Shown one piece after another: positions 7,492 through 29,630 of a stretch of 31,557 nucleotides of DNA. Each line of letters begins with the position of its first letter. The first letter of the stretch is position 1. The translations under genes and the position numbers were made by a program. Source of the stretch: a virus; IMG/VR virus record IMGVR_UViG_3300021475_000041, positions 1 to 31,557 of that record; one strand, 5' to 3'. The notes below the pieces were generated by a model that ran no database searches, was not told the DNA's origin, and worked only from the letters and a program-made list of their open reading frames with translations.

Positions 7492-8075
7492 CCGCTCGGC
7501 GAGCGGCGAAGACATCGCCGGCGCCGACGATCCAGTGGCCGGCCGATCGCGTCGAGCGCTGGTCGATCGAACGATTGATCCCGTATGCGCGCAACGCGCG
7601 GACCCACTCGGATGCGCAGATCGCGCAGATCGCCGCGTCGATCCGCGAATGGGGCTGGACCATGCCGGTGCTGGTCGATGGCGACGGCACGTTGATCGCC
7701 GGCCACGGTCGCGTGCTCGCGGCGCGGCAACTCGGTATCGCCGAGATTCCGACGATGACCGCGCGCGGCTGGAGCGAGTCGCAGATCAAGGCATACCGGC
7801 TCGCCGACAATCAACTCGCGACGCTCTCGGGTTGGGACGATCAGCTACTCGGCGTCGAGCTTGCCGAGCTTCGCGCGGTCGGCGCCAACCTCGAACTGAT
7901 CGGCTTCGCGACCGGCGACGTCGATAAGCTCATCAACGGACCGCAGGCGCCGAGTCAGTTTGGCGCCTATGACGAGTCGATCCCGGTCGAGCACACCTGT
8001 CCTAAGTGCGGATTCCGCTGGTCGGGCGGATCGAGCGGACCGGCGGGCGAAGGCGGCGATGATCCGTCCGAATAG
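7482..8075 (+). CDS. ParB/Srx-fold N-terminal domain protein with zinc ribbon
   Basis: The protein has 197 residues, with its start at 7482 inside the upstream gene's end. Residues 25-95 are a ParB N-terminal domain: L-I-P-Y-A-R-N-A-R-T-H-S, I-R-E-W-G-W-T-M-P-V-L-V-D, and A-G-H-G-R-V-L-A-A-R-Q-L-G, the position of the nucleotide-binding G-E-R-R-x-x-A motif. No ParB-type helix-turn-helix follows; instead a C-x-x-C pair (H-T-C-P-K-C-G-F-R-W) near residues 171-177 suggests a half zinc ribbon. In phages such proteins often lie beside DNA methyltransferases and act in DNA modification or nicking rather than partition. It overlaps the methyltransferase by 17 bases. Confidence 0.78.
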   Translation: MGVTARRAAKTSPAPTIQWPADRVERWSIERLIPYARNARTHSDAQIAQIAASIREWGWTMPVLVDGDGTLIAGHGRVLAARQLGIAEIPTMTARGWSESQIKAYRLADNQLATLSGWDDQLLGVELAELRAVGANLELIGFATGDVDKLINGPQAPSQFGAYDESIPVEHTCPKCGFRWSGGSSGPAGEGGDDPSE

Positions 8076-9342
8076 CAAGCCGCCGTATTGCATACCGTCG
8101 ATGGTCGAGATCGCGGCGATTCCGTTCAACGGATTGCGCGCGGTCTCGACGTTCTCCGGTTGCGGCGGTTCGTCGCTCGGCTATCGCATGGCAGGCTTCA
8201 AGGTCGCCTGGGCGAACGAATTCATCCCGGCCGCGCGCGATACCTACCGCGCTAACTTCCCCGATACGCGGATCGATGAGCGCGACATCCGGCAAGTCGA
8301 GCCTGCGGAGATACTCGACGCGGCCGGCGTGCTCGCCGGCGAGCTTGATCTATTGGACGGCTCGCCGCCGTGCGCGAGCTTTTCGATGGCCGGCAAACGG
8401 CAGCGCCATTGGGGACAGGTCAAGCGCTACTCGGATGGCAAGCAGCGCACTGACGATCTATTCTTCCAGTTCGTGCGGCTGCTGCGCGGTCTCCAGCCGC
8501 GCGTGTTCGTCGCTGAGAACGTCGCCGGTCTCGTTAAGGGCGTGGGCAAAGGGTTCTTTCTCGATATCCTGGCGGCGTTGAAAGACTGCGGCTACCGCGT
8601 CGAGGCGCGGCTACTCGATGCGCAATGGCTCGGCGTTCCGCAAGCGCGGCAACGGCTGTTCTTTGTCGGGACGCGGCTCGATCTCGCGATCGCTCCGGCG
8701 TTTCCGACGCCGCTCGCATACCGCTACAGCGTCCGCGACGCGCTGCCGTGGATCGGCGCGATCGAGCACGCTAACGGGTTCAACGGTCACGCTATGGAGC
8801 CGGTCGGCGTGCCGGCGCGAACCGTCCAGGCGGGCCGCTCGCTCAAGGTCCGCGTCAGCACCGCGCATCGGTCGCGCTCGATCGACGAACCGGCGCCGAC
8901 CGTGCAGACGCACAATAACCGGCACACCCGGAGCGAGATGGCGATCGAGACCGAAGCGGATATGTCGCGCTATGCGGTCGGTCGCGAGCTAGACAAGCTC
9001 GGACAGGGCCAGCAATCGGCGCGATACTTTCAGCTTACGCGCGCGTCGCTCGACGCGCCGGCCGGGACGATTACCGCAGAGGGCGGCAATCCGAGCCTCG
9101 CGTCGGTCGCGCATCCGACCGAGTGCCGCAAGTTTTCGATTGCCGAGCTACGCGCGATCTGCGGCTTTCCGGCAGACTTCGTGCTGACCGGAACCTACGC
9201 GCAGCAATGGGAACGGCTCGGTCGCGCGGTGCCGCCGCCGATGATGGCGGCGATCGCGGCGACGATCCGCGATCGCGTGCTAGACCCCAAACGCGAAAAG
9301 GGCGCGGATCGCTCCGCGCCCCTTCGTCGAGCAGCCGCGTGA
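8059..9342 (+). CDS. C5-cytosine DNA methyltransferase with Arg in motif X; candidate DNA carboxymethyltransferase
   Basis: The protein has 427 residues. The catalytic core is complete: motif I T-F-S-G-C-G-G-S-S-L-G (31-41), motif II with Glu54, motif IV G-S-P-P-C-A-S-F-S with nucleophile Cys105, motif VI E-N-V (153-155), and motif VIII Q-A-R-Q-R (195-199). The target-recognition region follows (about 250-345). Motif X, normally Q-x-G-N-x-V, reads R-L-G-R-A-V, with Arg389 (codon 9223-9225) in place of the Asn that contacts the cofactor. Changing this Asn to a basic residue in M.MpeI is reported to let the enzyme use carboxy-SAM and form 5-carboxymethylcytosine. With CmoA-like and AsnB-like genes nearby, the same activity is proposed here; ordinary 5-methylation is the alternative. 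Confidence 0.85.
   Translation: MIRPNSKPPYCIPSMVEIAAIPFNGLRAVSTFSGCGGSSLGYRMAGFKVAWANEFIPAARDTYRANFPDTRIDERDIRQVEPAEILDAAGVLAGELDLLDGSPPCASFSMAGKRQRHWGQVKRYSDGKQRTDDLFFQFVRLLRGLQPRVFVAENVAGLVKGVGKGFFLDILAALKDCGYRVEARLLDAQWLGVPQARQRLFFVGTRLDLAIAPAFPTPLAYRYSVRDALPWIGAIEHANGFNGHAMEPVGVPARTVQAGRSLKVRVSTAHRSRSIDEPAPTVQTHNNRHTRSEMAIETEADMSRYAVGRELDKLGQGQQSARYFQLTRASLDAPAGTITAEGGNPSLASVAHPTECRKFSIAELRAICGFPADFVLTGTYAQQWERLGRAVPPPMMAAIAATIRDRVLDPKREKGADRSAPLRRAAA
9300..9321 (-). terminator. intrinsic terminator for the minus-strand lipoprotein gene
   Basis: A perfect nine-base stem GGGCGCGGA/TCCGCGCCC with loop TCGC. Read on the minus strand it is followed by TTTTC. It sits within the last codons of the methyltransferase gene, so one sequence serves both the protein's basic tail and the terminator of the converging gene. 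Confidence 0.7.
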
Positions 9343-10511: not shown

Positions 10512-11876
10512 ATGTGCGGAATAATCGGCGGTTACGCCGCGTGGAGCTTTGACGTCGCCGCGCGGCTCGACTTGATCCGTCATCGCGGTCCGGACGGTTC
10601 CGGCGTCTGCACAATCGGTCCGGCGACGCACGGCCACGTCCGCCTGTCGCTGCTCGATCTCACGGACGCATCGGCGCAGCCGTTCCGCTACGGCGACGCG
10701 GTGCTGAGCTTCGTCGGCGAGATTTGGAATTACCGCGCGGTGCGCGCCGAGCTTGAAGCGCAGGGCGTCGCGTTCCGCACTACCGGCGATACCGAAGTGC
10801 TCGCCGCCGCGCTCGCGACCTGGGGCGACGCCGCGCTATCTCGGCTCGAAGGCATGTTCGCGTTCGCCTGGAGCACGCCCGATCGGCACATCCTTGTGCG
10901 CGACCGGTTCGGCAAGGTGCCGCTTTACGTCTCGCGGCGCGGCGGCGCGTTCGCCTGGGCCAGCGAGCGCAAGGGGCTGGGCCGTGAGTGGCCCGCAACC
11001 GCGCTGCCGCCAGGAACCCTCCTAGACCTCGCAACGGGGCAGGTCTCGGCGTGGTATGCGCTTCCGCGCACCGTCGCCGACGATCGTCCGTTGATCGAGG
11101 TCCTCGAGGCCGGCGTCCGCGCGCGGCTGGTCGCCGACGCGCCGCTCTGTTGCCTGATCTCCGGCGGTCTCGATAGCAGTCTCGTGCTGATGCTGGCGCG
11201 CCGGCACAAGCCGGATGTGGTCGCCTATACCGCCGTGCTCGATCAAGGATCGCTCGATCTGCGAGCGGCGCGCCGGCTCTGCCGCGAGCAACAGGTCAGA
11301 TTGATCGAGGTCCCGGTCCGCGCGCCCACGTCGCAAAGTCTCGCCGACGCGGCGCGCGTGATCGAGATCAACAGCAAGGCGCAGATCGAGATTGCGGCGC
11401 TGTGCATACCGCTCGCGCGCGCCATCGCCGGCGACGGCTTCAAGGCGTGCCTGTCCGGCGAAGCGGCCGATGAGTTGTTCGGCGGCTACGGCTCGCTGTG
11501 CATCAAGGGTTCCAAGGCCGACGATGCCGGCTGGCGCGCGCTGCGCATCGCGCAACTCGAAAAGATGGCGCGCGGTAACTTCGTCCGCTGCAACAAGGCA
11601 TTCATGGCGGCTGGCGTCGAGTGCCGGTTGCCCTTCATGGAGCGTGCGCTAGTCGAGCGCGTATTGAGTATGCCGAAGCGTGCCTGTCCGCCAGGAAAGC
11701 GCGCGCTAAAGCAAGCCGCCGCCGGCGTGATACCGCCGTGGATCATCAGCCGTCCGAAAGACACCTTCCAGGGCGCGAGCGGTATGGCGGACGCAGCGGC
11801 GCGCGCGGTCGCCTATCCGGCGGCGTTTTACCGCGCCGAGATCATGACGCAGTTCGGATCATCCGCGAGAGACTGA
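10512..11876 (+). CDS. asparagine-synthetase-like glutamine amidotransferase; candidate base-amidating enzyme
   Basis: A 454-residue protein whose ATG is fixed by the required Cys2 after Met removal. Residues 1-185 are a class II glutaminase domain: M-C-G-I-I-G-G, H-R-G-P-D (24-28), R-L-S-L-L-D (44-49), G-E-I-W-N-Y (69-74), G-D-T-E-V (92-96). Residues 195-454 are the ATP-dependent synthetase domain with the pyrophosphatase loop S-G-G-L-D-S-S (217-223) and S-G-E-A-A-D-E-L-F-G-G-Y (315-326). It is about 100 residues shorter than E. coli AsnB. The oxyanion-hole Asn before G-E-I is Val68, so glutamine use may be weakened. Next to the CmoA-like gene it may amidate a carboxymethyl group rather than aspartate. 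Confidence 0.85.
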   Translation: MCGIIGGYAAWSFDVAARLDLIRHRGPDGSGVCTIGPATHGHVRLSLLDLTDASAQPFRYGDAVLSFVGEIWNYRAVRAELEAQGVAFRTTGDTEVLAAALATWGDAALSRLEGMFAFAWSTPDRHILVRDRFGKVPLYVSRRGGAFAWASERKGLGREWPATALPPGTLLDLATGQVSAWYALPRTVADDRPLIEVLEAGVRARLVADAPLCCLISGGLDSSLVLMLARRHKPDVVAYTAVLDQGSLDLRAARRLCREQQVRLIEVPVRAPTSQSLADAARVIEINSKAQIEIAALCIPLARAIAGDGFKACLSGEAADELFGGYGSLCIKGSKADDAGWRALRIAQLEKMARGNFVRCNKAFMAAGVECRLPFMERALVERVLSMPKRACPPGKRALKQAAAGVIPPWIISRPKDTFQGASGMADAAARAVAYPAAFYRAEIMTQFGSSARD

Positions 11877-15157: not shown

Positions 15158-15194
15158 GGCGGGAGATCGGCGACGGTCTCTCGCCTTTTCTTTT
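15158..15194 (+). terminator. intrinsic terminator after the capsid gene
   Basis: GGCGGGAGA (15158-15166) pairs with TCTCTCGCC (15177-15185) with one G-T pair and a ten-base loop, followed by TTTTCTTTT. It would leave capsid mRNA more abundant than the portal and fibre transcripts. Confidence 0.75.
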
Positions 15195-15490: not shown

Positions 15491-16939
15491 ATGGCGCTGC
15501 GCGACTTCATCACCCGCGTCGGGATGCGTCTCCGGCTGATTACGCGCAACGCGTGGCTGCCGACCGTGCCGCCGAGGGAATGGGGACATACGTGGTATCA
15601 GTCCGGCTATCCGTCGCCGAACACGATGCCGCCGCTGCTTACGTTCCCGGCGGTCTATACGTCGATCGATACCATCAGCAGCGACATCGCGCGGTTGCCG
15701 GTCAAGCATTACAAGATGGAGCAGGGCCAGCGCATCGAGGTCGAGAATTCCGCGCCGCTACGCGTGCTCGACAAGCCGAACGGCTACCAGACCCGCTTCG
15801 ATATGATGAAGCAATTCGTCGCGGCACAACTCTATCGCGGCAACAGCTACCTGTATGCGAAGCGCAACCGGCGTTATGAGATCGATGAGCTTCACGTGCT
15901 GTTCCCCGATAACGTCTATGCCTATCGCTCCGGCAGCGAAGTCTTCTATGAGGTTGGCGCGCAACCGCTCGCCGAGATCGACGTCCGGAAGATGCTGACG
16001 ACGCGTGAGTGTCTCCACCATCGCATGTTCACGCTCGCCGATCCGTTGATGGGTATCACGCCGCTGATCGCGGCGGCGCTCTCGACGTCGGCGGGGATGG
16101 CGATCATCCGGCAGTCCGAGCGGTTCTTTAACCAAATGGCGCGACCGTCCGGCGTATTGTCCACCGCCGGCCGGCTCGATCCGAAGAAAGCGCAGGACAT
16201 CAAGGATCGCTGGAACGCGGTCTATAAGGGCATCCAGAATAACGCCGGCGATGTCGCGGTCCTCGAGGAAGGGCTCGAATGGAAAGCCCTGACGATGACC
16301 TCGGTCGATGCGCAGTTGATCGAGCAGCTACGCTATACCGTGGAAGACGTCGCGCGGGTCTATCGGTTGCCGATCTTCATGCTCGGCGATCTGACGAAAG
16401 TCTCATACAATTCGTCGGAACAGCTTGTGCGGATTTACTACTCGGGCTGTCTGGTCGCGCACATGGTCGCGCTCGAAGACAGGTTCTCCCAATTCTTCGA
16501 TATGAACGGGCGCACCGAGTGGCTCGAATTCGATACCGATTACCTGTTCCGGACCGAGATGGTCGCGCGCATCGAAGCGCTCGCGAAGTCGGTGCAAGGC
16601 GGTATCCGCACGCCGAATGAGGCGCGCATCATCGAGGGTCTCAATCCGGTCTCCGGCGGCGATGTGATCTTCATGCAGCAACAGATGGCGCCGGTCGAGG
16701 TCCTCGCGACGCGCGCCGATCTAACCAGCAAGCCGCCGAGCGGTCCGGCGCCGACGCCGCAACCGGCCGCGCTACCGGCGCCGGAGCGCACCCCCGTAGC
16801 GGTGCCCTCAGACGCGCTACGCGACGCGTTGATGGGTGCCGTGTTCGCGGACCGGCCGGCGAGCCGGACGCTCCTAGCCCCTGTCGAGCGGCGAGCAACA
16901 AGGCGACTGATCCATGGACGGCGATCTCGCATTGCCTGA
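15491..16939 (+). CDS. HK97-family portal protein
   Basis: The portal protein, 482 residues, forms the dodecameric channel at the head vertex through which DNA is packaged. Family features run in order: V-Y-T-S-I-D-T-I-S-S-D-I-A-R-L-P (54-69), G-N-S-Y-L-Y (116-121), L-F-P-D-N-V near 137, the H-x-x-x-F-T-L-A-D-P-L-M-G-I-T-P-L segment near 178, P-S-G-V-L-S, Q-L-I-E-Q-L-R-Y-T-V-E-D-V-A-R-V-Y-R-L-P, and R-T-P-N-E-A-R near 373. The C-terminal 80 residues are Pro/Ala-rich. It follows capsid instead of preceding protease, the reverse of the common order, and no terminase lies upstream in the window. Confidence 0.92.
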   Translation: MALRDFITRVGMRLRLITRNAWLPTVPPREWGHTWYQSGYPSPNTMPPLLTFPAVYTSIDTISSDIARLPVKHYKMEQGQRIEVENSAPLRVLDKPNGYQTRFDMMKQFVAAQLYRGNSYLYAKRNRRYEIDELHVLFPDNVYAYRSGSEVFYEVGAQPLAEIDVRKMLTTRECLHHRMFTLADPLMGITPLIAAALSTSAGMAIIRQSERFFNQMARPSGVLSTAGRLDPKKAQDIKDRWNAVYKGIQNNAGDVAVLEEGLEWKALTMTSVDAQLIEQLRYTVEDVARVYRLPIFMLGDLTKVSYNSSEQLVRIYYSGCLVAHMVALEDRFSQFFDMNGRTEWLEFDTDYLFRTEMVARIEALAKSVQGGIRTPNEARIIEGLNPVSGGDVIFMQQQMAPVEVLATRADLTSKPPSGPAPTPQPAALPAPERTPVAVPSDALRDALMGAVFADRPASRTLLAPVERRATRRLIHGRRSRIA

Positions 16940-19900
16940 GACGTTCATCGACGCGGTAGTGCGCGCGCTCGCGCCGGTGCTCGTGCGGTTGCGCGAGGAC
17001 GTCCAGGCGCGGCTTGACGCGTTCGAGGTTGCGCTCGCCGAGCGGATGGCCGAGCGGCAACTCCAGACCGGCGAGCTACTCGATGAGAGCCGGCGCCACG
17101 CCGAGGACTCGATCCGGCAAAGTGCCGAAGCGGTCCGCTCGCTCGCCGCGCTGGTGGTCGCCGAGACCCGCGCGATGCCGGACCGGCTTACCCAGCAAGT
17201 CGCGCTGCTGCCGCGTCCGCGCGATGGCCGCGACGGTCACTTGACGATCGCGCACGGCTACGTCGCCGGCCGCGTCTATGATCCTGGCGAGCTTTGCCGG
17301 CATCGCGGCGGAACGTGGCAGGCGATCGACCGGACCGCCGACACGCCGGGACCGGACGCGACGACATGGCGCATCGTCGCGGACGGCTTGCACGAGATCG
17401 ACGGCACGCAGGACGCGGGCGATCCGCGCGCGTTCACGCTCGGCGTCGAGCAAAGCGACGGCTTGCGGCGCGAGCTTGCGGTCCGCTTCCCGATTCCGCT
17501 CCACCGCCGGCAGTTCGCCGGCGATGCGGTCTATGAGATGGGCGATGAGGTTGCGCTCGACGGTAGCACTTGGCGCTGTGTGGTCGAGCGCGCGAACACG
17601 TCGCCGCCGTCGCCGGAATGGGCGCTGGTCTCGCAACGCGGCGGACGCGGCAAGCAGGGCGAGCGCGGACCGCAGGGCGAGCAAGGCGTCTCCGGTGCGC
17701 CAGGACGGCACGGCGAGCCGGGACCTGTTGGCGTAGCGGGGCCAGCCGGTCGCGGCGTCTCCGGCGTCCGTAGCGTTAGCGCTGGGGTGATTCAACTCAT
17801 CTTCACCGATGACGAATTGAGCGAGCCGATCGACGTGACCGCGTTCCGCTATCGCGGCGCCTATAAACCCGGCGAGAGCTATAGCGCGGGCGATGTCGTC
17901 CGGCTCGGCTTCAATCTCTTCATCGCGCTTGCGCGGACCGAGAGCGTGCCGAGCAACGCGTCGAGTGATTGGGCGTTGTTCCTGCCGGGTGTCGAGCCGG
18001 CGTCGGGTAGCGGCATTCCCGGCTCAGAGACGTTTGTCGTGCGAGCCGGCGATAACATGACCGGAGCGCTCGGCTTATTCGGTCCACCGACGCAACCGCT
18101 CCACGCGACAACGAAGGCTTACGTCGATGCGATCGTCGGTGCTCGGGCGACCTATCGCGGTCTCTGGCAGGTCGCGCTAAACGATCCGGATTTGACCGCC
18201 ATCGTCGCCAACCCCGGCGACTATTACACGGCTACCACCGCTGATCCGGCGATGCCCGAGCGGGCGCCTCCGGAGATCGCCGGCATCGGCGGCGAGATCA
18301 TCAGCAATGGCGACTTCGTTATCTGGACCCACGAACGCGACGAATGGGAGCATCTCGGCGGCGGCGGACTGACGCGCATCGAGGCGGACGATCTCTATGT
18401 GTTCAAGGCCGGCGATACGATGACCGGCGTGCTGCGCGTAACCCATCCGAGCGGACCGGGCGCCGAGATCGGTCTATCGACCAGTCTCGGCGACGCCATC
18501 ATTGCATTGGGTGGAACCGAAATCTCGGTTGTGCGATTTGACGCGGACGGACTCCACCGCTGGGCAATCGGCACGACGGGCCTCCAGCTAGGGAATTATG
18601 ATCTCGGCTTCGTCCGCTACGGCGCGACCGGCCAGCCGCTCGACGTGCCGATCCGCTTCGTCTCGGCGGATGGTAGCTTGCAGATCAATAACGAAATATT
18701 CATGCACAAAGCGGGCGACCAGACCGGCAACGCGCCCTCTGTTCGTTGGGCCGACGATAGCGGCAATCTGGCGTGGATTTACGGCTCGCGTTCGGCGTTG
18801 CTCGGCGGTCCGGCCCTGATCTTCCGCGTCGAGAATATCCCGGCGGCGGACGGTAGTCCGCAAGGTGCTGAGACGTTGATGCGCTCGCGTCCGGCCGACG
18901 TGTTGGGCGAGCCACCGCACCTCGAACTGATGATCGACCCGGCCGAGCCGCAAGACGCGGCGACGAAGCGCTATATCGACGATCTGCTCGCGCCGCTGCC
19001 CGGCGAGTATGTGTTGAAAGCCGGCGATACGATGACCGGGCGCCTAACAATCACGGACCCGATTTTCGAGCCGGCAGTCGAGTTGCGCGGCACAGAGCAC
19101 GCCGGGATTCTGTTTAGCGACTCCCGAGATACCGCACCGTTATGGTCGCTTGCTTACAATATCCAAGGCGTCGGTGGGCCGATTGGATTCAACATTAGTC
19201 GATTTAGTCCCGACGGCTTAACTCCGGAAGATATTGGTATCATCTCGATTGACAATAACAGCCTAATTACCGCCAGGACGATCCGCACGCGCGACGGCGA
19301 TCCGGTCAATGACAACGATCTCGCGCGCAAGGCGTATGTCGATACGCTTGCCGACAACTTTGTGCTCAAGGCCGGCGATATGATGACCGGCGATCTCGAA
19401 TTCGACGTGGGATCGCCGGTTCTGCCGATCAATCGTGCGCCCGGTATCGTATGGGAGGCCGAGCGCTTCGGTGTCTTCGTTGCTGACAGTGCCGGAGTGA
19501 CCGGGCTTTGCCTGCAAGCCGATCGTCTCGACCATCTATTCGCGGTCGATGAATTCACGAACCGCGCGGAAATCCTAACCGAGCGAACCGGAATCATGGT
19601 TCGCGGCGGCGATCGTGGCGAGATGACCGGATTCCTGACGCTGCACGCTAATCCGGTCGATGACCTGCACGCCGCGCCGAAGCAATACATCGATGAGCTA
19701 TTCGATCGCGGTCCCGATCTATTCGTCGCGAAGGGCGGCGATACGATGACCGGCAATCTGATGGTGCGCTTTCAAGATACCGGACCGTCATCGTCAGTAT
19801 CGCTCGGCACGGTCGCCGGCTCGCTCGCCGCGCTGCAACTCGACGGGATCGACGGCGAGATATTGCAATTCGCCCGCGAGGGTTCCGGCAAATGGACATT

Positions 19901-22265
19901 CGGCGTCACGCCGATGGTAGGTCTAGCCGAGGATCTCGCGATTATCCGCCACGCCGCAGACGGATCGGTTGCGGATATTCCGCTGCGCATCGCGTTAGGA
20001 TCGGGTCTCATCTCCGTCGTGAATCATATCCGCACGAGCGCGGGCGATCCGGTCGATGACAACGATCTCGTGCGGAAATCCTATATCGACACGCTCGCGA
20101 CGTCGCTGATCCGCTATCAGGGTCTCTGGCAGGTCGCGGCGAACGCTCCGGACCTTATTACGTGGCCTGCGCAATCGGGCGATTACTTCATCGCCGAGAC
20201 CGCCGATCCGCAGATCGCCGAGACCGCGCCGGCCGGCATTCCCGGCATCGGCGGACAAACGATCTTTAATCACGACTGGATTCTCTGGTCGCCGCGATTG
20301 AACGAATGGGAGCGCTTGGTCGGCTCGGGTGGTGGTCTGACGCGGCCGGAGGCGGATGCGCGGTATATCGTCAAGACTGGCGACGATATGCAGGGCTTCC
20401 TGACCCTGTTCGACGATCCGGTTACCGATATGCACGCCGCGAGCAAGCGCTATATCGACCGGCGGATGGTCCGCGATTGGGCGATCGGATTGGAGATCGC
20501 GGCCGGCGAGGTTGTGCGCTGGGATAATATGCTATTCCGGGCGCGCCTCGCGATTCCGTCCGCGCCGGCGACGCCGGACTATTCGACGCTCGATCTCTAC
20601 GGTCAGAATCAGGGCGACTATTGGCAAGGCGCGCCGTCGCTAACGAATTACGCGACCGGCAACTGGATGCAATTGGTCACGTTACCGGCTTACGGCTCAT
20701 TCCGCTTTCATATAGACGTGTATGGTAATACCTGCGACTGTTCGTTCATACTCGACATCACCACCACATTTAACGCCGCGTCGATGTCGCTCTCGATGGC
20801 GCGCAATCCTGCCGGCCTTATGTTCGATCAATTCCGGCTCAGCGATACCGGCGGCGCTACGGTCAAGCGACTAGAAGCGCGCCTCCGGAATGCCGGCACT
20901 ACGCCATCATTCAAAATCCACTGTCTGGGGATGCACCGCGAGGTTAATACCCCTAATCAGGTGATTATCCCGAAGCCGCCGCAGGCACTTGCGGGCGGCG
21001 CCAATCTCGGCGGGACGCAGCGCGTCTTGCTAACCGGTCTCGAAACAGCGGGCGTTACCGCCGCCGACAGCAATATCGCCATAACGAACGGCGGCTTTAT
21101 TCGCTTCGGGCACGCTAACGCGATCGACGTAAACGACGGAAGGATGGGCGCGCGGCTATTCGGTCGCGGACTCAACATCGTTGGCATCCCGACCGAGGCA
21201 GGCAATACCGAGCGGTATATACAACTGTTTGGCATCGTCGAAAACGTGAACCGCAATTTCGTCACGGCCACGGACGGCTACGGCTTAGAGACGATGGCGG
21301 GAGGGCGCTTCTACAAAGCGGTCGGCACCGGTCTCGTTATTCGCTGCCATAGCGGCAACACGCAGCCGCAGATTGAGGATAACAATGGCAGCAACCGCCG
21401 TGCGATTCTTGATACGCGCGGCGGCACCCTGACCGGTGGGCTGAGCTTTGGCAGCGTAGCGCAGGCGAGCGTCACCGACTTGTCGCGGCATCTCGCGCTC
21501 TGGGGCACCACCTTCGGCTTTAGCATTACCGGCGGACGGCTTAACGCCGTCGTGCCCGCCGCGAATTCCTTTGTAATAACGGTCGGCGGCGCCGACGTTG
21601 CATCGTTCTTTAATAACGGAATCAACGCCAACCAGCCGATCAATGTCCGCCAGCCGAACAATACCGTCGCTGTGCGTCTGATGGCCGCGACCAATGCGGC
21701 CGGCGTTATTAGTCCCTGGCTCTTGGGAACCGATAGCACCAACAATGAATTCGGCCGCATCTGGTGGGACGGACCGGGGTGGAATGGCCGGTGGGAAGCG
21801 CGGCTGCACTTCGGCATGAATATGGGCGGCTATGGCTGGACCGAGAATGCGCGCTTTAATACCTATCAAAGCGGCGGCCAGTTTTACGTCATCAACGACT
21901 GTTCCGTTCAGTCGCTAACCCAGCGCAGCGCGCGAGCCGACAAGCGCGACATTCGCGCCGCGCAAGCCGACGAAGTGCAAGCCGCCTGGGACCGGATCAC
22001 GGTGCATCGTTTCCGATGGAACGAACCGCCGCCGCCGGTCGATGACAAGGGCAAGCGGTTGCCGCACCCCGCGCCGTATATCGAACGGCGCATGAAATTC
22101 GGTTTCATCGCCGACGATCTGCCGGAAGACTTGCAAATGTATGCCGCTCCTGGCGTTCCTGATCCGACCAAGGTCGAGGGTTACGATCTCGCGCAAGTGC
22201 TCGCGCTGACCGTCGCCAAGGTCAAAGCGCTCGAAGCCGAGATCGCCGAGCTACGCAATGCCTGA
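16914..22265 (+). CDS. giant collagen-containing fibre protein with C-terminal S74-like chaperone
   Basis: The product has 1783 residues; its start overlaps the portal gene by 26 bases. Order of parts: a helical N-terminus (20-95, likely coiled coil), two carbohydrate-binding-like small beta modules around 120-240, about 40 residues of G-x-y collagen repeats (about 243-284), another small module, then six or more repeats built on A-G-D-T-M-T-G-x-L followed by K-x-Y-V/I-D, known from tail fibres. A G-L-W-Q-V module of about 95 residues occurs twice (near 413 and 1068). The end, from about 1665 (S1672, D1676), resembles the S74 intramolecular chaperone with F-G-F-I-A-D-D and a final coiled coil. 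A receptor-binding fibre is likely; its place in the head module leaves head or neck fibres possible. Confidence 0.8.
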   Translation: MDGDLALPETFIDAVVRALAPVLVRLREDVQARLDAFEVALAERMAERQLQTGELLDESRRHAEDSIRQSAEAVRSLAALVVAETRAMPDRLTQQVALLPRPRDGRDGHLTIAHGYVAGRVYDPGELCRHRGGTWQAIDRTADTPGPDATTWRIVADGLHEIDGTQDAGDPRAFTLGVEQSDGLRRELAVRFPIPLHRRQFAGDAVYEMGDEVALDGSTWRCVVERANTSPPSPEWALVSQRGGRGKQGERGPQGEQGVSGAPGRHGEPGPVGVAGPAGRGVSGVRSVSAGVIQLIFTDDELSEPIDVTAFRYRGAYKPGESYSAGDVVRLGFNLFIALARTESVPSNASSDWALFLPGVEPASGSGIPGSETFVVRAGDNMTGALGLFGPPTQPLHATTKAYVDAIVGARATYRGLWQVALNDPDLTAIVANPGDYYTATTADPAMPERAPPEIAGIGGEIISNGDFVIWTHERDEWEHLGGGGLTRIEADDLYVFKAGDTMTGVLRVTHPSGPGAEIGLSTSLGDAIIALGGTEISVVRFDADGLHRWAIGTTGLQLGNYDLGFVRYGATGQPLDVPIRFVSADGSLQINNEIFMHKAGDQTGNAPSVRWADDSGNLAWIYGSRSALLGGPALIFRVENIPAADGSPQGAETLMRSRPADVLGEPPHLELMIDPAEPQDAATKRYIDDLLAPLPGEYVLKAGDTMTGRLTITDPIFEPAVELRGTEHAGILFSDSRDTAPLWSLAYNIQGVGGPIGFNISRFSPDGLTPEDIGIISIDNNSLITARTIRTRDGDPVNDNDLARKAYVDTLADNFVLKAGDMMTGDLEFDVGSPVLPINRAPGIVWEAERFGVFVADSAGVTGLCLQADRLDHLFAVDEFTNRAEILTERTGIMVRGGDRGEMTGFLTLHANPVDDLHAAPKQYIDELFDRGPDLFVAKGGDTMTGNLMVRFQDTGPSSSVSLGTVAGSLAALQLDGIDGEILQFAREGSGKWTFGVTPMVGLAEDLAIIRHAADGSVADIPLRIALGSGLISVVNHIRTSAGDPVDDNDLVRKSYIDTLATSLIRYQGLWQVAANAPDLITWPAQSGDYFIAETADPQIAETAPAGIPGIGGQTIFNHDWILWSPRLNEWERLVGSGGGLTRPEADARYIVKTGDDMQGFLTLFDDPVTDMHAASKRYIDRRMVRDWAIGLEIAAGEVVRWDNMLFRARLAIPSAPATPDYSTLDLYGQNQGDYWQGAPSLTNYATGNWMQLVTLPAYGSFRFHIDVYGNTCDCSFILDITTTFNAASMSLSMARNPAGLMFDQFRLSDTGGATVKRLEARLRNAGTTPSFKIHCLGMHREVNTPNQVIIPKPPQALAGGANLGGTQRVLLTGLETAGVTAADSNIAITNGGFIRFGHANAIDVNDGRMGARLFGRGLNIVGIPTEAGNTERYIQLFGIVENVNRNFVTATDGYGLETMAGGRFYKAVGTGLVIRCHSGNTQPQIEDNNGSNRRAILDTRGGTLTGGLSFGSVAQASVTDLSRHLALWGTTFGFSITGGRLNAVVPAANSFVITVGGADVASFFNNGINANQPINVRQPNNTVAVRLMAATNAAGVISPWLLGTDSTNNEFGRIWWDGPGWNGRWEARLHFGMNMGGYGWTENARFNTYQSGGQFYVINDCSVQSLTQRSARADKRDIRAAQADEVQAAWDRITVHRFRWNEPPPPVDDKGKRLPHPAPYIERRMKFGFIADDLPEDLQMYAAPGVPDPTKVEGYDLAQVLALTVAKVKALEAEIAELRNA
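17748..17774 (+). repeat. 27-base direct repeat, copy in first fibre gene
   Basis: Identical to 25152-25178 in the third fibre gene; encodes G-R-G-V-S-G-V-R-S directly after the collagen segment. A second exact match of 35 bases follows (17826-17860 with 25230-25264). Confidence 0.85.
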
Positions 22266-24510
22266 CGATCTCGACTTCACCCGGCTTGCTGATGAGGTTG
22301 CGGCGCGCCTGATCGATCAAGCGGGACCGCGCGTTAGCTTCACGCAGCTTGCCCGCGATTGGCAACCCGGCGAAATCCACGAGCAGGGCGCCGTTGTCTC
22401 GCACCAGGGCGGTATCTGGCAGGCGCGCGTGCGCACCGCGTCGCGACCGTCCGCCGAGACCGGCGAGTGGTTGCTCCTGACCAATGGCATCCGGCTCGTG
22501 CGCAGCTATCAGGAGCGCGACGATCCGCGCGTGTTCGGCTTGCTGATCGGGCTGACCGGCGGGAGGACGATCGATCTCCCGTTCCGGCTCGCGCTACCGG
22601 TGCACCGAGGCCAATACCGCGCCGGCGCGCATTACTTCGAAGGCGATGAGGTCGAATTCGGCGGCGCGACGTTCCGCGCGTTGATCGAGGCCCCCGGCGC
22701 GCCGGACGGCGAAGGCTGGATCGTGGTCGCCGCGCGCGGTCGCCAGGGCTTTACCGGCGAGCGCGGACCGCAAGGCGAGATCGGGCCGGCCGGCGAGCGC
22801 GGCGAGCCAGGAGCCGCCGGCCGCGACGGACCGCGCGGCGACGCCGGCGAGCCGGGGCCGCGCGGACCGGGGATCGCCGCGATCGAGCCGGTCGCCGGTA
22901 ACCCCGGCTTTATTCGCGTGGTCCTCGAGGACGGCTCGATCTCGGACCCGATCGAGGTCTCGACGATGCGCTTCGTCGGCATCTATCGACCGGGCGCCGA
23001 GTATGAGCGCGGCAATATCGTCCGGCTCGGCTTCAATCTCTGGATATGCGTCGAATCGACCGGTGACGTTCCGACCGCGACATCCGACAAGTGGACGATC
23101 TTCCTTGTCGCGCCGGAGATGGCTCTCGGTGGCGCGAGTGGCGGCGGCGCTCCCGATCTGCCGACGCTCGATCAGCGCTATGTGAACAAGGCCGGCGGCG
23201 ATTGGATGAATGGACCGCTGCAAATTCGCAGCGATACGATGGCCTTCCCCGGTCTGCAATTCGTCAATACGGCAGGCGACGTGATGATCGGCGGAATTCG
23301 AAGCATCGTCCGGCCGGGCGATGGCGGCGAATTGACGCTTTCGGTGCTGGTCGGCACCGCGCTCTTGGATGCGATAGGCATCTATCCCGGTCTCGATGGC
23401 CTTCCGCACGTCAATGTCTTTACCGAGCCGACCGTCGATAATGACGTCGCGACGAAGCGCTATGTCGATCAGTTCGCCGGCGGCGGCGCTTTCCTTCCGC
23501 TCGCCGGCGGCACGATGACCGGCGTGCTTCTGTTCGCGGCGGGGCAGGGCTTGGGATTCCTGCCGGGATTCTCTGCGGTCTATGAAGACGCCGCTGGGTT
23601 GACGCTCCGGCAGGCGAACGGCGACGCCGGCGTATTCATCGAGGGAAGCGGCGGCACACCCGGTTCGCGGCGTCGCATTCTAGTCGAGGGCGATGCTCTA
23701 ACACAGGGCGACGCCGACAACCGGTATCTGGCAATCATCGGCAGTCAGGTTCACGGAGAACTCACTTTCGTTCGCCCAGATGGCAATCCGGACCTTCCCT
23801 TACAGCCCGGTATTACGTTTAGCGCGCGACTTGCGCGTATCTATTGGGACGTCGCCGGCTTGATTATCCGGCGCGGCACGGCAAACGAGCCGGTGGTAAT
23901 CGAGAACAACAATGGCACGGCGCGTAGTCCGATTATCACGCAGGCAATGGGCGACGCGCGCTATCTGCAACTCGCCGCCGGCGGAATCGTCGCCGGACCG
24001 ATGCAACTCTTGCAGACGCCGATCCTTCCGACCGACGTCGTGACGAAGGGTTACGTCGATACCACCGCGAGCACGCCGATCACGCTCCGCACGCAAGTCT
24101 ATATGCCGGATGAATTCGCTATCGCGGCGCCGTCCACGGCGACGGTGTTCTTCGATCAAGACTTCCAGCTTCCGCCGACCGGTATCCGGATGCTGCTGAT
24201 TACGGTCGATCCGATGTTCGCTTCGGCCGATGCGGCAGGCACGCCCTGGTATGTGGTCTATGGCTGCAACCTCATCGCGATCGAAAGCTCGATGATGGTT
24301 TACAAGATGGACAATACCAGTCCGGCCGGGATGCTCCGGTCCCAGGCGAAGTTTGCTGTTGGCGTCGATGCGACGCCCGGCTTGGTGCGCGTCACACTGA
24401 CCGTGCGCTGCCCGACGGTAGGATCGCCGGTGGTTCAGGTCGGTGTCGGCGGCACGATCGCGCCGACCATGCGCACTCTCGTTACCATTCAGGATTTGGG
24501 ACCGCCGTAA
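22258..24510 (+). CDS. collagen-containing fibre paralogue 2
   Basis: The product has 750 residues; its start overlaps the first fibre gene by eight bases. It repeats the plan of its neighbour on a smaller scale: a short helical N-terminus, a CBM5/12-like module at 33-75 (W-Q-P-G-E-I-H-E-Q-G-A-V-V), a second module with H-Y-F-E-G-D-E-V near 125-140, collagen G-x-y repeats at 161-205, another sugar-binding-like module near 225-270, and several G-G-T-M-T-G/K-G-Y-V-D fibre repeats. The last 130 residues differ from the other two and form a beta-rich tip without an S74 chaperone. It probably trimerises and may bind glycans of the host surface. Confidence 0.78.
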   Translation: MPDDLDFTRLADEVAARLIDQAGPRVSFTQLARDWQPGEIHEQGAVVSHQGGIWQARVRTASRPSAETGEWLLLTNGIRLVRSYQERDDPRVFGLLIGLTGGRTIDLPFRLALPVHRGQYRAGAHYFEGDEVEFGGATFRALIEAPGAPDGEGWIVVAARGRQGFTGERGPQGEIGPAGERGEPGAAGRDGPRGDAGEPGPRGPGIAAIEPVAGNPGFIRVVLEDGSISDPIEVSTMRFVGIYRPGAEYERGNIVRLGFNLWICVESTGDVPTATSDKWTIFLVAPEMALGGASGGGAPDLPTLDQRYVNKAGGDWMNGPLQIRSDTMAFPGLQFVNTAGDVMIGGIRSIVRPGDGGELTLSVLVGTALLDAIGIYPGLDGLPHVNVFTEPTVDNDVATKRYVDQFAGGGAFLPLAGGTMTGVLLFAAGQGLGFLPGFSAVYEDAAGLTLRQANGDAGVFIEGSGGTPGSRRRILVEGDALTQGDADNRYLAIIGSQVHGELTFVRPDGNPDLPLQPGITFSARLARIYWDVAGLIIRRGTANEPVVIENNNGTARSPIITQAMGDARYLQLAAGGIVAGPMQLLQTPILPTDVVTKGYVDTTASTPITLRTQVYMPDEFAIAAPSTATVFFDQDFQLPPTGIRMLLITVDPMFASADAAGTPWYVVYGCNLIAIESSMMVYKMDNTSPAGMLRSQAKFAVGVDATPGLVRVTLTVRCPTVGSPVVQVGVGGTIAPTMRTLVTIQDLGPP

Positions 24511-25847
24511 TGGATGAGATCGCCCTCGCCGAAGCCGTCGCGACGGCTCTCGCTGAACGGCTCGGCGCGCAGCCGGCCGGTCGCCTGATCGGCGTCGCCG
24601 AGCCAGCGATGACCGCGCCCGTCGATTTGACGCAACCGGCGCGCGTCTGGCGCGAGGGCGATATCTATGAACAGGCGGCGGTTGTCTTTCACGCCGGCGG
24701 CTTGTGGCAGTCGCGCCAGCCGACCGCCGCGCGTCCGCCAGGACGGATCGGCGAGTGGCTGTTGATCGCCGATGGCATCCGCTCGGTGCACGCCTATCAG
24801 GAGGGCGTCGATCCGCGCGCGTTCGGCGTGGTGGTAACGCTCGCCTCCGGCAACGTGATCGATCTGCCGGTCCGTCTGCCGCTGCCGTTGCATCGCGGCG
24901 CGCATGATCCGGCAATCGCCTATCACCAGGGCGATGAAGTCGCCTTCGCCGGCGCGACGTATCGCGCGCTCCACGACGCGCCGGGACCGCCGGACGGCGA
25001 CGGCTGGGCGATGGTCTCGGCGTCCGGCCGCGACGGCGAGCGCGGCGAGCAAGGCCCACCGGGCGAACGCGGCGAACCGGGCGCTACCGGCTCGCCGGGC
25101 GTGCCTGGACCCGCTGGCGGGCTTGGCCCGCTTGGTCCCCAAGGCCGACCCGGTCGCGGCGTCTCCGGCGTCCGTAGCCCCGGCGTCGGCATGGTCCAGC
25201 TAATCTTCGACGATGAGGTATTGAGCGATCCGATCGACGTGACCGCGTTCCGCTATCGCGGCGCGTATCAGCCCGGAGCGAGCTACGGCGCCGGCGATGT
25301 CGTCCGGCTCGGCTATAACCTCTGGATCGCGGTTGTCGGCACCGATGGCGTGCCGGGTGCGAGCAATCCGGATTGGGCGCTGTTCCTACCGGGCGTCGAG
25401 CCGTCGAGCGGCGGCGCCGGCGGCGGTAGCGGCGGCGGCTTCACCCAGGCGGACGCCGATCAGCTCTATCTATCGCTCGGCGGCGGCGAGGTCACCGGTC
25501 CGTTGCAGGTGCCGCTTGGCGCGCTCGCCGGACCGGCTCTGCAATTTGGCGCAACCGCGACCGGATTATTTTCAGCCGGTGGGGCGCTAATCGTCGATGT
25601 CGGCGGCACTTTGGTAGCTCAGTTTATGCAGGCCCAGGTGATGATGGTTGTGCCGTTGAATATGGCACTTAACCGGATCACCAATCTGGCGGCGCCAGCC
25701 GCCGCGAGCGATGCCGCACCGCGCAGTTACGTCGATACCACGGACGCGGCAACGCGCAGCTACGTCGATACAACGGACGCGGCAACGCGCGCACTTATTA
25801 CCGCGCTCGATGCGCGCGTCGCCGCATTGGAGGCGGCGGGACCATGA
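24510..25847 (+). CDS. collagen-containing fibre paralogue 3, short form
   Basis: A 445-residue protein whose start shares one base with the preceding stop. Residues 45-170 hold two small beta modules (W-R-E-G-D-I-Y-E-Q-A-A-V-V and Y-H-Q-G-D-E-V-A-F-A-G-A-T-Y), then collagen repeats at 173-218, then R-G-V-S-G-V-R-S and a third module nearly identical in DNA to that of the first fibre gene. A Gly-rich linker and two 11-residue repeats (R-S-Y-V-D-T-T-D-A-A-T) lead to a coiled-coil end (A-R-V-A-A-L-E-A-A). It lacks a receptor-tip domain, so it could be a shaft or adaptor, or a truncated relic. Confidence 0.78.
   Translation: MDEIALAEAVATALAERLGAQPAGRLIGVAEPAMTAPVDLTQPARVWREGDIYEQAAVVFHAGGLWQSRQPTAARPPGRIGEWLLIADGIRSVHAYQEGVDPRAFGVVVTLASGNVIDLPVRLPLPLHRGAHDPAIAYHQGDEVAFAGATYRALHDAPGPPDGDGWAMVSASGRDGERGEQGPPGERGEPGATGSPGVPGPAGGLGPLGPQGRPGRGVSGVRSPGVGMVQLIFDDEVLSDPIDVTAFRYRGAYQPGASYGAGDVVRLGYNLWIAVVGTDGVPGASNPDWALFLPGVEPSSGGAGGGSGGGFTQADADQLYLSLGGGEVTGPLQVPLGALAGPALQFGATATGLFSAGGALIVDVGGTLVAQFMQAQVMMVVPLNMALNRITNLAAPAAASDAAPRSYVDTTDAATRSYVDTTDAATRALITALDARVAALEAAGP
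25152..25178 (+). repeat. 27-base direct repeat, copy in third fibre gene
   Basis: Exact copy of 17748-17774, with 25230-25264 matching 17826-17860. The two tracts lie about 7.4 kb apart in the same frame and orientation, so recombination would fuse fibre 1 to fibre 3 and delete fibre 2. Confidence 0.85.
25722..25787 (+). repeat. two tandem 33-base units near the fibre 3 C-terminus
   Basis: Units 25722-25754 and 25755-25787 differ at only two positions (T/C and C/A) and encode R-S-Y-V-D-T-T-D-A-A-T twice. Recent duplication of a trimerisation-repeat step. Confidence 0.8.
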
Positions 25848-26470
25848 GCCACGCGCGCCGGCGCTGGTCCTGGCATCACCCCGACCTGCACGCGCGCCTG
25901 GTCCGGCTAAAGCTGCCGACCGTTACGCCGCTCGAATTGCCCGAGATCGTCTTGCATCTCCGGCTCGATCCTGGCGCCGATAGCGGTCCCGAGGCGCCGT
26001 TGCTGACCTCGATGCTCGCGTCCGCGATCGGCCATCTGGAGCGCTACTGCTCGGTCGCGATTATGGAACAGGACTGGCGAATAACGCTGCACGAATGGCC
26101 GCCGGCGTATCAGGGCCTCGAATTGCCTCTCCCGCCGTTCGCCGAATTGCTCGCGGTCCGGACCGCCGAGGGGCCGGCCGATATCGCCGACTATCTAATC
26201 GAGCCGGACGATCGCTTTCCGGCCGTGCTCTATCCGGTCTCGCAATTCTGGCCGCAAGTGACGCGCGGACCGCTCGCCATTTCGATTGATTTTCGCGCCG
26301 GCCGCGAGACCGCCGACGAAGTGCCGGCCGATATCAAGCAAGCGCTGCTGCTCGCGATCGCCGCGTGGTATGAGAACCGCGAAGCGCTGACACAATTCAC
26401 GCTTACGCCGATGATCGAGCTTGGCTGGCAAGCGTTGCTCGGTCCGTATCGCCAGGAGGGCTTCGCCTGA
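25844..26470 (+). CDS. head-tail connector protein (gp6/phiE125 gp8-like)
   Basis: A 208-residue protein joined to fibre 3 by an ATGA overlap. It fits the connector family that docks on the portal: residues 25-60 form a helical part with V-L-H-L-R-L-D, then S-M-L-A-S-A-I-G-H-L-E-R-Y-C, a beta region (D-W-R-I-T-L-H-E-W-P, L-P-L-P-P-F), and a closing helix D-I-K-Q-A-L-L-L-A-I-A-A-W-Y-E-N-R-E with the typical W-Y-x-x-R-E end. It forms the first ring of the neck. Confidence 0.85.
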   Translation: MSHARRRWSWHHPDLHARLVRLKLPTVTPLELPEIVLHLRLDPGADSGPEAPLLTSMLASAIGHLERYCSVAIMEQDWRITLHEWPPAYQGLELPLPPFAELLAVRTAEGPADIADYLIEPDDRFPAVLYPVSQFWPQVTRGPLAISIDFRAGRETADEVPADIKQALLLAIAAWYENREALTQFTLTPMIELGWQALLGPYRQEGFA

Positions 26471-26871
26471 TGCCCGAAGGCAAGGCGCCCCCGATCGGCT
26501 ATCTCCGCAATCTCGCCGACGTGTTCGAATGGACCGACGTCCCGCAGATCGGCGGCGCCGGCGTTGTTCCCGGCTATGTGCCGATCGCCAAGTGCTGGTG
26601 CTCGATCAAGATAAAGGCCGGGGAGACGTGGCTGAACGGTGCGCAGACCGGCGAAGCGACCGGACCGCGCGGGACGCATACGATCCGGACGCGGTTCCGC
26701 GAGTATCTAACCACGCGCCACATGCTGGAGATCGCCGGCAAGCGATACCGGATCGTCTCGGTCACCAATGACGATGCGCGCCGCTATACCCAATTGGAGG
26801 CCGAGCTTTACGGCGACGCGGCGATCATCGGCATCGGTCCGCCGATACCGCTTGGCCTGGAGGACGCATGA
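26470..26871 (+). CDS. head closure (head-tail adaptor) protein
   Basis: The product has 133 residues; its start shares a base with the connector stop (TGATG). The small beta-barrel pattern of the head-closure family is visible: P-I-A-K-C-W-C-S-I-K-I-K near 37-48, R-G-T-H-T-I-R-T-R-F near 67-76, L-E-I-A-G-K-R-Y-R-I-V-S-V-T-N-D-D (86-102), and a short C-terminal strand. It would seal the connector after packaging. The order connector, closure, gp10 is the standard HK97-type neck module. Confidence 0.8.
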   Translation: MPEGKAPPIGYLRNLADVFEWTDVPQIGGAGVVPGYVPIAKCWCSIKIKAGETWLNGAQTGEATGPRGTHTIRTRFREYLTTRHMLEIAGKRYRIVSVTNDDARRYTQLEAELYGDAAIIGIGPPIPLGLEDA

Positions 26872-28148: not shown

Positions 28149-29630
28149 ATGGCAATCAGCTTTAAGAATATTCCGCGCAATCTCCGGGTGCCGCTCGCCT
28201 ATTTCGAGATGGACAACTCGCTCGCCGGCAACGCGACCGCGCTTCAGGTCGCGCTGTTGCTCGGCACGGTTCCGGCGACGGCGGCGCTGCCGGTCAATAC
28301 GCCGACGCTGGTCTCATCCGCCGATGAGGCCCGCTCGCTCTGCGGCGCCGGTTCGGCGTTCGGCCGGCAGGCGCAGCGCTGGTTCGCGAACAACGCCAGC
28401 GTGCCGCTCTATCTGCTCGCCGGCGGACAAACCGGCTTCACCGCTGCGGTCGGTCGCATCGCATGGGCGGGCGATGTGACCGCGAGCGGGACGATCCCGC
28501 TTTATATCGGCTCGCGCCGCTGCCCGGTGCTGGTCGCAACCGGCGATGACGCCGAAGCCGTCGCCCAGGCGGTCGCCGACGCGATCAACGCGGACCCGAC
28601 GCTCGGAATTGTCGCGAGTATTGTCGGCGCGACGCCGGAGGAAACCGTCCTAACCGCCGCGCAGCTTGGCATCCTTGGCCCGCTCGATATCGGCTTCGCC
28701 TATGCCGGCGCGGTCGGCGGCGAAGCGATGCCGGCGGGGATTACCGCGACCGTGACGCCGATGACCGCCGGCACCGGTAGCCCCGATGTCGCGGCGCTGC
28801 TCGGCTCGATCGGCGATGCGCCATTCGACTTCGTGATCTGCCCCTATTGGGCGGCGCCGAACCTCGATGCGCTCGACGAATTCTTTAACGACACAAGCGG
28901 GCGCTGGAGTTGGCAGTCGCAGCTATATGGCCACGGCTTTACCGCGACGCGGCAACCGCTCGGCGCGCTCAGCACGCTCGGGCAATCGCGCAACGGTCAG
29001 CACGTCTCGATTATGGGCTTCGCCGGCTCGCATACGCCGGCGGACGAATGGCTGACCGCGTATGTCGGACAGGCGGCGGGATCGTTGATCGTCGATCCGG
29101 CGCGACCGGTGCAAGCGTTGCCGCTGATCGGCGTTATGGCGCCGGATCGAGGGAGCCGGTTCACCATCTTGGAACGTCAGGTGCTCTATTTCGATGGCAT
29201 AAGCGCTACCTACGTCACCGAGGATGGGACCGTCTATATCGACCGGCTTATTACGACATACAGACAGAACGTGTGGGGCGCGCCGGACGATAGCTACCTT
29301 GATGTCGAGACCATGTTCACGGCGCAATATTTCAACCGGTTTATGAAGAACCGGATTCTGCTGAAATATCCGCGCCACAAGCTCGCCAACGATGGCACCC
29401 GGTTCGGCGTCGGTCAGGCGATCGTCACGCCGGCGATCATCCGCGCCGAGATGGTCGCCGGCTATGGCGAGTTGGAGGAGCTAGGCTTGATGGAGAACCT
29501 CGACGGCTTCGAGGCGGCGTTGATCGTCGAGCGCAACGCGCAGGACCCGAACCGGGTCGATGTGTTGCTGCCGCCCGACTTCGTGAATCAATTGCGTATC
29601 TTCGCCGCGCTGACCCAATTCCGGTTGTGA
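28149..29630 (+). CDS. contractile tail sheath protein (Mu gpL-like)
   Basis: A 493-residue protein that forms the contractile outer tube, marking the phage as a myovirus. Family features: N-terminal I-S-F-K-N-I-P-R-N-L-R-V-P-L, then L-L-G-T-V-P, the S-A-D-E-A-R-S-L-C-G-A-G-S-A-F-G-R-Q segment near 57-74, F-D-F-V-I-C-P-Y-W-A near 226-235, and in the last 150 residues Y-I-D-R-L-I-T-T-Y, D-V-E-T-M-F-T and the closing beta elements (V-D-V-L-L-P-P-D-F-V-N-Q-L-R). Length is normal for the family. Confidence 0.9.
   Translation: MAISFKNIPRNLRVPLAYFEMDNSLAGNATALQVALLLGTVPATAALPVNTPTLVSSADEARSLCGAGSAFGRQAQRWFANNASVPLYLLAGGQTGFTAAVGRIAWAGDVTASGTIPLYIGSRRCPVLVATGDDAEAVAQAVADAINADPTLGIVASIVGATPEETVLTAAQLGILGPLDIGFAYAGAVGGEAMPAGITATVTPMTAGTGSPDVAALLGSIGDAPFDFVICPYWAAPNLDALDEFFNDTSGRWSWQSQLYGHGFTATRQPLGALSTLGQSRNGQHVSIMGFAGSHTPADEWLTAYVGQAAGSLIVDPARPVQALPLIGVMAPDRGSRFTILERQVLYFDGISATYVTEDGTVYIDRLITTYRQNVWGAPDDSYLDVETMFTAQYFNRFMKNRILLKYPRHKLANDGTRFGVGQAIVTPAIIRAEMVAGYGELEELGLMENLDGFEAALIVERNAQDPNRVDVLLPPDFVNQLRIFAALTQFRL

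Follow-up and report, generated by a model that had tools for sequence, protein, structure and literature searches.

Why should three large collagen-containing fibre genes lie between the portal gene and the neck genes of a phage, and where on the virion would their products sit? The window, by which we mean the whole stretch of DNA analyzed, corresponds to a linear virus record 31.6 kb long. Because its 3′ end falls inside the tape measure gene, the baseplate region is absent from it. The neighboring genes, all identified, encode the protease, major capsid protein (MCP), portal, head-tail adaptor Ad1, head closure protein Hc1, Neck1, terminator, sheath, tube, and tape measure, with the three fibre genes FIB1, FIB2, and FIB3 set between portal and Ad1 (Table 1); the contractile sheath gene identifies the phage as a myophage. 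The initial annotation had placed ORFs of 1783, 750, and 445 residues here, and the boundaries it gave are exact to the base. It had also described the fibres as splitting the head module, which they do by parting portal from adaptor rather than capsid from portal, as the MCP gene lies 5′ of the portal gene in this lineage.

Table 1. Position of the portal, fibre, and neck features in the window
Feature	Coordinates	Strand	Basis or remark
Portal protein (482 aa)	15491..16939	+	Pfam PF04860 (Phage_portal) E 3.9e-76; phrog_12 E 9.8e-91
FIB1, giant fibre (1783 aa)	16914..22265	+	26-nt overlap with portal
FIB1 predicted helical N-terminal anchor, about aa 1–95	16914..17198	+	Sequence pattern; unique to FIB1
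FIB1 tandem CBM5/12-like modules	17241..17633	+	Homologous to JLK-2012 gp62 C-terminus and phrog_1289
FIB1 collagen Gly-X-Y run, aa 243–281	17640..17756	+	
FIB1 third CBM-like module	17826..17984	+	Alignment
FIB1 shaft, repeated GDTMTG...KxYVD tail-fibre repeats	18024..20483	+	
FIB1 swapped tip, aa about 1500–1783	21411..22262	+	Identity step versus orthologues
Peptidase_S74-like intramolecular chaperone in FIB1 tip (weak)	21927..22127	+	PF13884 E 0.0018, 19 bits, below gathering cut-off of 22
FIB2, fibre (750 aa)	22258..24510	+	8-nt overlap with FIB1
FIB2 collagen run, aa 161–205	22738..22872	+	
FIB2 tip	24070..24507	+	Same type weakly present at FIB1 end in relatives
FIB3, short fibre (445 aa)	24510..25847	+	1-nt overlap with FIB2
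FIB3 N-terminal helix, aa 3–17, putative docking helix	24516..24560	+	AlphaFold2 pLDDT about 70
FIB3 CBM modules 1 and 2 with linking beta region, aa 44–172	24639..25025	+	AlphaFold2 model, pLDDT about 90
FIB3 collagen run, aa 173–217	25026..25160	+	
FIB3 CBM module 3, aa 250–294	25257..25391	+	AlphaFold2 model, fold comparison
FIB3 C-terminal helix, predicted coiled coil	25770..25835	+	AlphaFold2 model
Head-tail adaptor Ad1	25844..26470	+	phrog_442 E 9.4e-24; 4-nt overlap with FIB3
Head closure Hc1	26470..26871	+	phrog_25
Contractile tail sheath	28149..29630	+	phrog_165 E 1.4e-162

From portal through Ad1, successive genes overlap by 26, 8, 1, and 4 nt, leaving no intergenic gap. Programmed frameshifting from portal into FIB1 was considered and rejected: the 26-nt overlap holds no slippery run, so the two are ordinary overlapping genes. 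A pattern scan found a strong terminator-like stem of 12 pairs with a T tail (15158–15185) directly 3′ of the MCP gene. A scan of the portal-to-Ad1 block for promoters and terminators yielded nothing that stands out, the weaker sites being at the level of shuffled sequence. The portal, fibre, and neck genes may thus form an expression unit below the MCP gene, as far as pattern scans can indicate.

The arrangement recurs in other contigs. Portal orthologues with 61–87% identity lie upstream of FIB1 in all related contigs, and in a first set of ten IMG/VR relatives, found by portal similarity, every contig long enough to show the order has portal followed by FIB1, FIB2, FIB3, and Ad1. A second set comprised 25 loci retrieved by fibre similarity. 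Complete arrays are present in the window and in L118, L119, L120, and L129, of which L118 shares its contig with L010, and many incomplete arrays occur besides; L119 and L120 are near-identical in appearance and are probably one lineage. An independent 4.8-kb contig, L112, is identical across FIB3, Ad1, and Hc1, and its upstream end lies in a FIB2 with the same tip. Repetition of the array in other contigs, L112 included, shows that it is not due to chance. A tree of the tandem CBM region clusters the first, second, and third fibres by position with 3 changes, the minimum (shuffled mean of 16.4, and no shuffle as low), although support for the first group is modest (69/52) and the grouping of the second depends on rooting. 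The clustering by position indicates that the tripling predates the divergence of these contigs and that each copy has been retained. FIB1 varies in length, with 297 residues in L119 and 1783 in the window; the short form (L119, 3825–4718) stops soon after a short collagen run and is intermediate between a single-gene family described below and the long form.

Beyond these contigs, the core region had no megablast match among phage records, and two scans of 84,980 bacterial genomes for a host, one by portal alignment and one by fibre alignment, found no relatives. Elsewhere in the window, a DNA methyltransferase gene (7960–9342; phrog_116, E 2.7e-81) has 87% identity to its counterpart in L005 and no match in L008, L010, or L011. 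An asparagine-synthetase-like gene (10512–11876; Asn_synthase, E 1.9e-39, and GATase), placed just before a methyltransferase gene, looks like an insertion in the window lineage because L005 has the flanking pieces joined without it.

The three fibres had been described as sharing one N-terminal plan. All three do carry a Pfam CBM_5_12 match (E 4.5e-7 to 1.6e-8) together with a collagen stretch of 13–15 Gly-X-Y triplets (39–45 residues), and they are paralogous in their N-terminal regions (37–50% identity by blastp, E 1e-48 to 4e-82), but FIB1 has in addition a helical N-terminus of about 95 residues, which is 64–74% identical in orthologues. Each fibre has three CBM5/12-type folds placed around the collagen stretch, the post-collagen module being a third copy of the same fold. 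In the AlphaFold2 model of FIB3, a short N-terminal helix and a low-confidence linker precede compact modules at residues 44–87, 129–172, and 250–294, all with a chitin-binding-domain fold, and a second helix lies at the C-terminus. The nearest structures to these modules are the chitin-binding domain of Serratia chitinase B and the tail fibre of cyanophage A-1(L) (Z 6.6–7.4, rmsd 1.2–1.6 Å over 44–46 residues); searching solved structures by sequence, with FIB1 and JLK-2012 gp62 as queries, returned nothing. An amphipathic N-terminal stretch is plain in FIB1, FIB2, and gp62, and in several FIB3 and other members it does not rise above shuffled sequences, so that an N-terminal docking helix common to all members is offered as a suggestion.

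Does the chitin-binding fold imply glycan binding, as the initial annotation proposed for the N-terminal modules? The case is weak. An aromatic pair is important for chitin binding, and at its position (KYWT/KWWT; AKYW in 2rts) six aligned window modules have ALHD, ALIE, CVVE, AVVG, ALAR, and CVES. The pair is likewise missing from the JLK and SP-016 copies, and thus from every copy inspected, which makes glycan binding by the CBM modules doubtful, places recognition in the tips, and leaves the beads to be read as structural. The swapped distal tips are more likely to be the recognition parts than the N-terminal modules.

The tips themselves, also described as different among the three proteins, are so for FIB1 and FIB2; FIB3 has no globular tip and ends in a coiled coil. 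FIB1 is mostly 60–90% (about 75%) identical to its orthologues over residues 1–1500, with dips near residues 700–800, and about 25% identical beyond residue 1500. Judged from this step in identity, the FIB1 tip has been replaced. A homologue of the tip, 47–49% identical, forms the fibre end on unrelated contigs (L141/L142), and at least three other FIB1 ends occur among relatives. The FIB2 tip is among the fastest-changing regions of that protein. A conserved trunk with an exchanged tip is the usual pattern of receptor-binding fibres. Among the three fibres, only the FIB1 tip matches PF13884, and that weakly (Table 1). AlphaFold modeled the C-terminal 604 residues of FIB1 with a mean pLDDT of 40.6, only a beta-sandwich at about residues 1233–1374 being moderately modeled, and this low-confidence model was left out of the fold search.

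The fibres have relatives under another name. Among the best matches of FIB1–3 in PHROGs are phrog_1289 and phrog_2271, both called portal protein; phrog_1289 covers the tandem CBM region with E values of 6e-22, 7e-17, and 3e-17 for FIB1, FIB2, and FIB3. We rejected the reading of FIB1–3 as portal proteins: Pfam finds only CBM_5_12 and collagen in them and no Phage_portal (PF04860), and the true portal is the gene directly upstream. Instead, the members of this family share a place. JLK-2012, Salmonella FSL SP-016, Pseudomonas PAJU2, Sinorhizobium RHph_X2_26, and EBPR siphovirus 3 have a second gene between portal and Ad1 that encodes a protein of 334–613 residues, helical and then CBM-like; PAJU2 and RHph_X2_26 are tied to the window less strongly by sequence, their link depending partly on position and on JLK gp62. 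The slot is thus filled by a single gene in siphophages of Escherichia, Salmonella, and, judged by position, Pseudomonas and Sinorhizobium. When relatives of gp62 were fetched by fibre similarity alone, Ad1 lay directly 3′ in 79 of 80 loci and portal 5′ in 73 of 80, the remaining loci being mostly cut by contig ends. Members such as JLK-2012 gp62, PAJU2 ORF007, SP-016 00155, and the fused E. coli portal WP_000267294 resemble FIB1–3 in their tandem CBM region, helical N-terminus, slot between portal and Ad1, and short overlaps. The helical N-terminus of FIB1 ends in RPRDGRDG, as it does in the family, whereas a short helix is all that FIB2 and FIB3 have there; long N-terminal coiled-coil repeats of the form PVPxDGxxxxPDDV vary within the family and are likewise absent from RHph_X2_26. 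The known members differ in being single genes of about 300–600 residues that end at or near the CBM region with little or no collagen, shaft, or tip, whereas the window has three paralogues with collagen, a third CBM, shafts, and tips. By sequence and place, then, FIB1–3 are members of this portal-adjacent family in a new, expanded form. In tblastn searches of 50,697 phage records, FIB2 matched nothing outside the JLK-like group and FIB3 matched nothing at all.

Many E. coli prophages join the two neighbors. Portal and fibre form one in-frame ORF in 21 of 73 loci, in which five consecutive G close to where the portal gene ends have become six; the run is found in L018 (6090–6200), L040, L037, L047, and others. 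E. coli JJ1886 has the fused form as a single 861-residue "phage portal protein," and RefSeq labels the separate-gene version "frameshifted." Of 5426 complete E. coli genomes, 1235 carry the junction, many of them sharing one prophage lineage, and the inspected records annotate the gene that carries it as portal. The name portal protein in PHROGs and RefSeq is therefore explained in part by a G5/G6 indel that joins the fibre in frame to a real portal. The length of the run sets whether portal and fibre are two genes or a single fused ORF, and the run could act as a slippage switch. Such joining shows the fibre to be a close partner of the portal, which is short of proof of attachment. In known portals the C-terminus faces the capsid interior, and for this reason the fusions are hard to reconcile with a fibre on the outside of the virion, unless the fused product is processed, a minor species, or nonfunctional.

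Taken with gene order and homology, these observations make it probable that FIB1–3 are neck, or portal-vertex, fibres acting as ancillary adhesins. That they might be head or neck fibres had been proposed at the outset, and the proposal now has indirect support from the portal–Ad1 slot kept across siphophages and myophages, from the portal fusions, and from ordinary fibres or spikes elsewhere in relatives. FIB1–3 would be produced alongside the portal and neck proteins and attached where head meets tail, at the portal vertex or the neck, as fibres that we infer to be trimeric, besides an ordinary baseplate fibre or spike. Each base would consist of the N-terminal helices and CBM-fold beads and each rod of the collagen stretch with the MTG/YVD repeats, while the exchangeable C-terminal tips would touch the host surface, an ancillary role like that of the lactococcal neck passage structure (NPS), with the A-1(L) neck fibres as a further analogue. 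The further suggestion of alternative receptor-binding sets mounted on one collar, itself putative, agrees with paralogues that separated anciently and tips that vary independently.

It is unlikely, in our estimate, that FIB1–3 are ordinary baseplate-attached tail fibres merely encoded at an unusual site. Tail fibres typically have MTG/YVD repeats, collagen, and an S74-like tip as these do, and the phage structures closest to the CBM modules among those solved belong to baseplate-attached fibres (those of 7-7-1 and Milano and the A-1(L) tail fibre). However, the relative that preserves its tail end has a tail spike of its own. L010 has the longest contig of the relatives, at 57 kb; its tail genes break off at one end and continue from the opposite one (baseplate hub and spike, then W, J, and I homologues), a join read from gene order in a record classed as linear, and there an 802-residue beta-helix (pectate-lyase-like) spike with a YVD repeat follows baseplate gpI (L026, 7160–9568, minus strand). 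The contig of L027 likewise has a separate tail fibre gene after gpI, and JLK-2012, besides gp62, encodes tail fibre J and a side tail fibre. Among relatives open to this comparison, the portal-side fibres are thus additional, and by analogy those of the window would be so too. Moreover, the portal-adjacent slot is kept in siphophages, which have no contractile baseplate.

Attachment to the capsid shell rather than the neck, in the manner of SPP1 gp12 or the phi29 head fibres, is less likely still. FIB1–3 are encoded within the head module, as is the collagen-like, capsid-binding gp12 (PMC6316719), and 7-7-1 bears capsid fibres (PMC12796354), but the conserved flanking genes are portal and Ad1 and not MCP, the terminator-like stem-loop parts MCP from the portal operon, and the fusion partner in E. 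coli is the portal. Very improbable is a role as portal-vertex assembly or completion factors whose fibre-like look reflects a structural scaffold without host contact: JLK-2012 and its relatives do have a portal-adjacent protein that is mostly coiled coil and CBM folds without a distal tip, the aromatic pair is missing, and the A-1(L) neck-fibre CBM did not bind its host (PMC10966104), yet the long shafts and fast-changing, exchanged tips of FIB1 and FIB2 are characteristic of proteins that touch a partner which itself varies.

We put forward more tentatively, as a possibility that falls short of probable, that neck fibres of this kind make up an unrecognized, widespread portal-vertex class, present in HK97-type siphophages and myophages alike and concealed by the label portal protein, with three specialized, separately evolving fibres on one collar in this uncultured myophage clade and, in E. 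coli prophages, a homopolymeric G-run switch that links fibre and portal covalently. If so, neck fibres are what PHROGs and many E. coli genomes list as portal, models of host range restricted to baseplate fibres overlook a second, exchangeable set of adhesins, and the same slot in laboratory siphophages such as PAJU2 becomes a concrete, testable target. We found no earlier report of a three-fibre portal-side array in the openly accessible literature, and we know of none.

Among known systems, three invite comparison. The NPS of the lactococcal 936 and TP901-1 phages, which is expressed with the capsid and proposed to attach to the portal, is also a fibre made with the head genes that has a constant N-terminal part and exchangeable CBM-containing C-terminal parts and is ancillary to the baseplate adhesin; its CBM binds the host weakly (PMC6669499). 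The NPS has one copy on a BppU-like beta-sandwich base, whereas FIB1–3 have helical bases and CBM5/12 beads with collagen, in three copies, in a contractile-tailed phage. Because a BppU-like base was not found in the FIB3 model, the sole fibre N-terminus modeled, we do not claim membership in the NPS family. SPP1 gp12 is likewise a collagen-like trimer encoded in the head module, and it is nonessential, but it is a capsid-binding protein of 64 residues without CBM or tip, and its gene lies between those for scaffold and MCP (PMC6316719). Neck fibres gp80–gp82 of the Anabaena myophage A-1(L) also come from a three-gene operon and have a carbohydrate-binding module, and they are trimeric (PMC10966104), as FIB1–3 would be. 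Those genes lie far from the other structural genes, and their products form one serial bead chain of base, shaft, and tip; by this description FIB1–3, with a base and an end of its own in each protein, are set apart. Since no FIB lacks an N-terminal base, the A-1(L) arrangement of three parts in series is the less likely one here.
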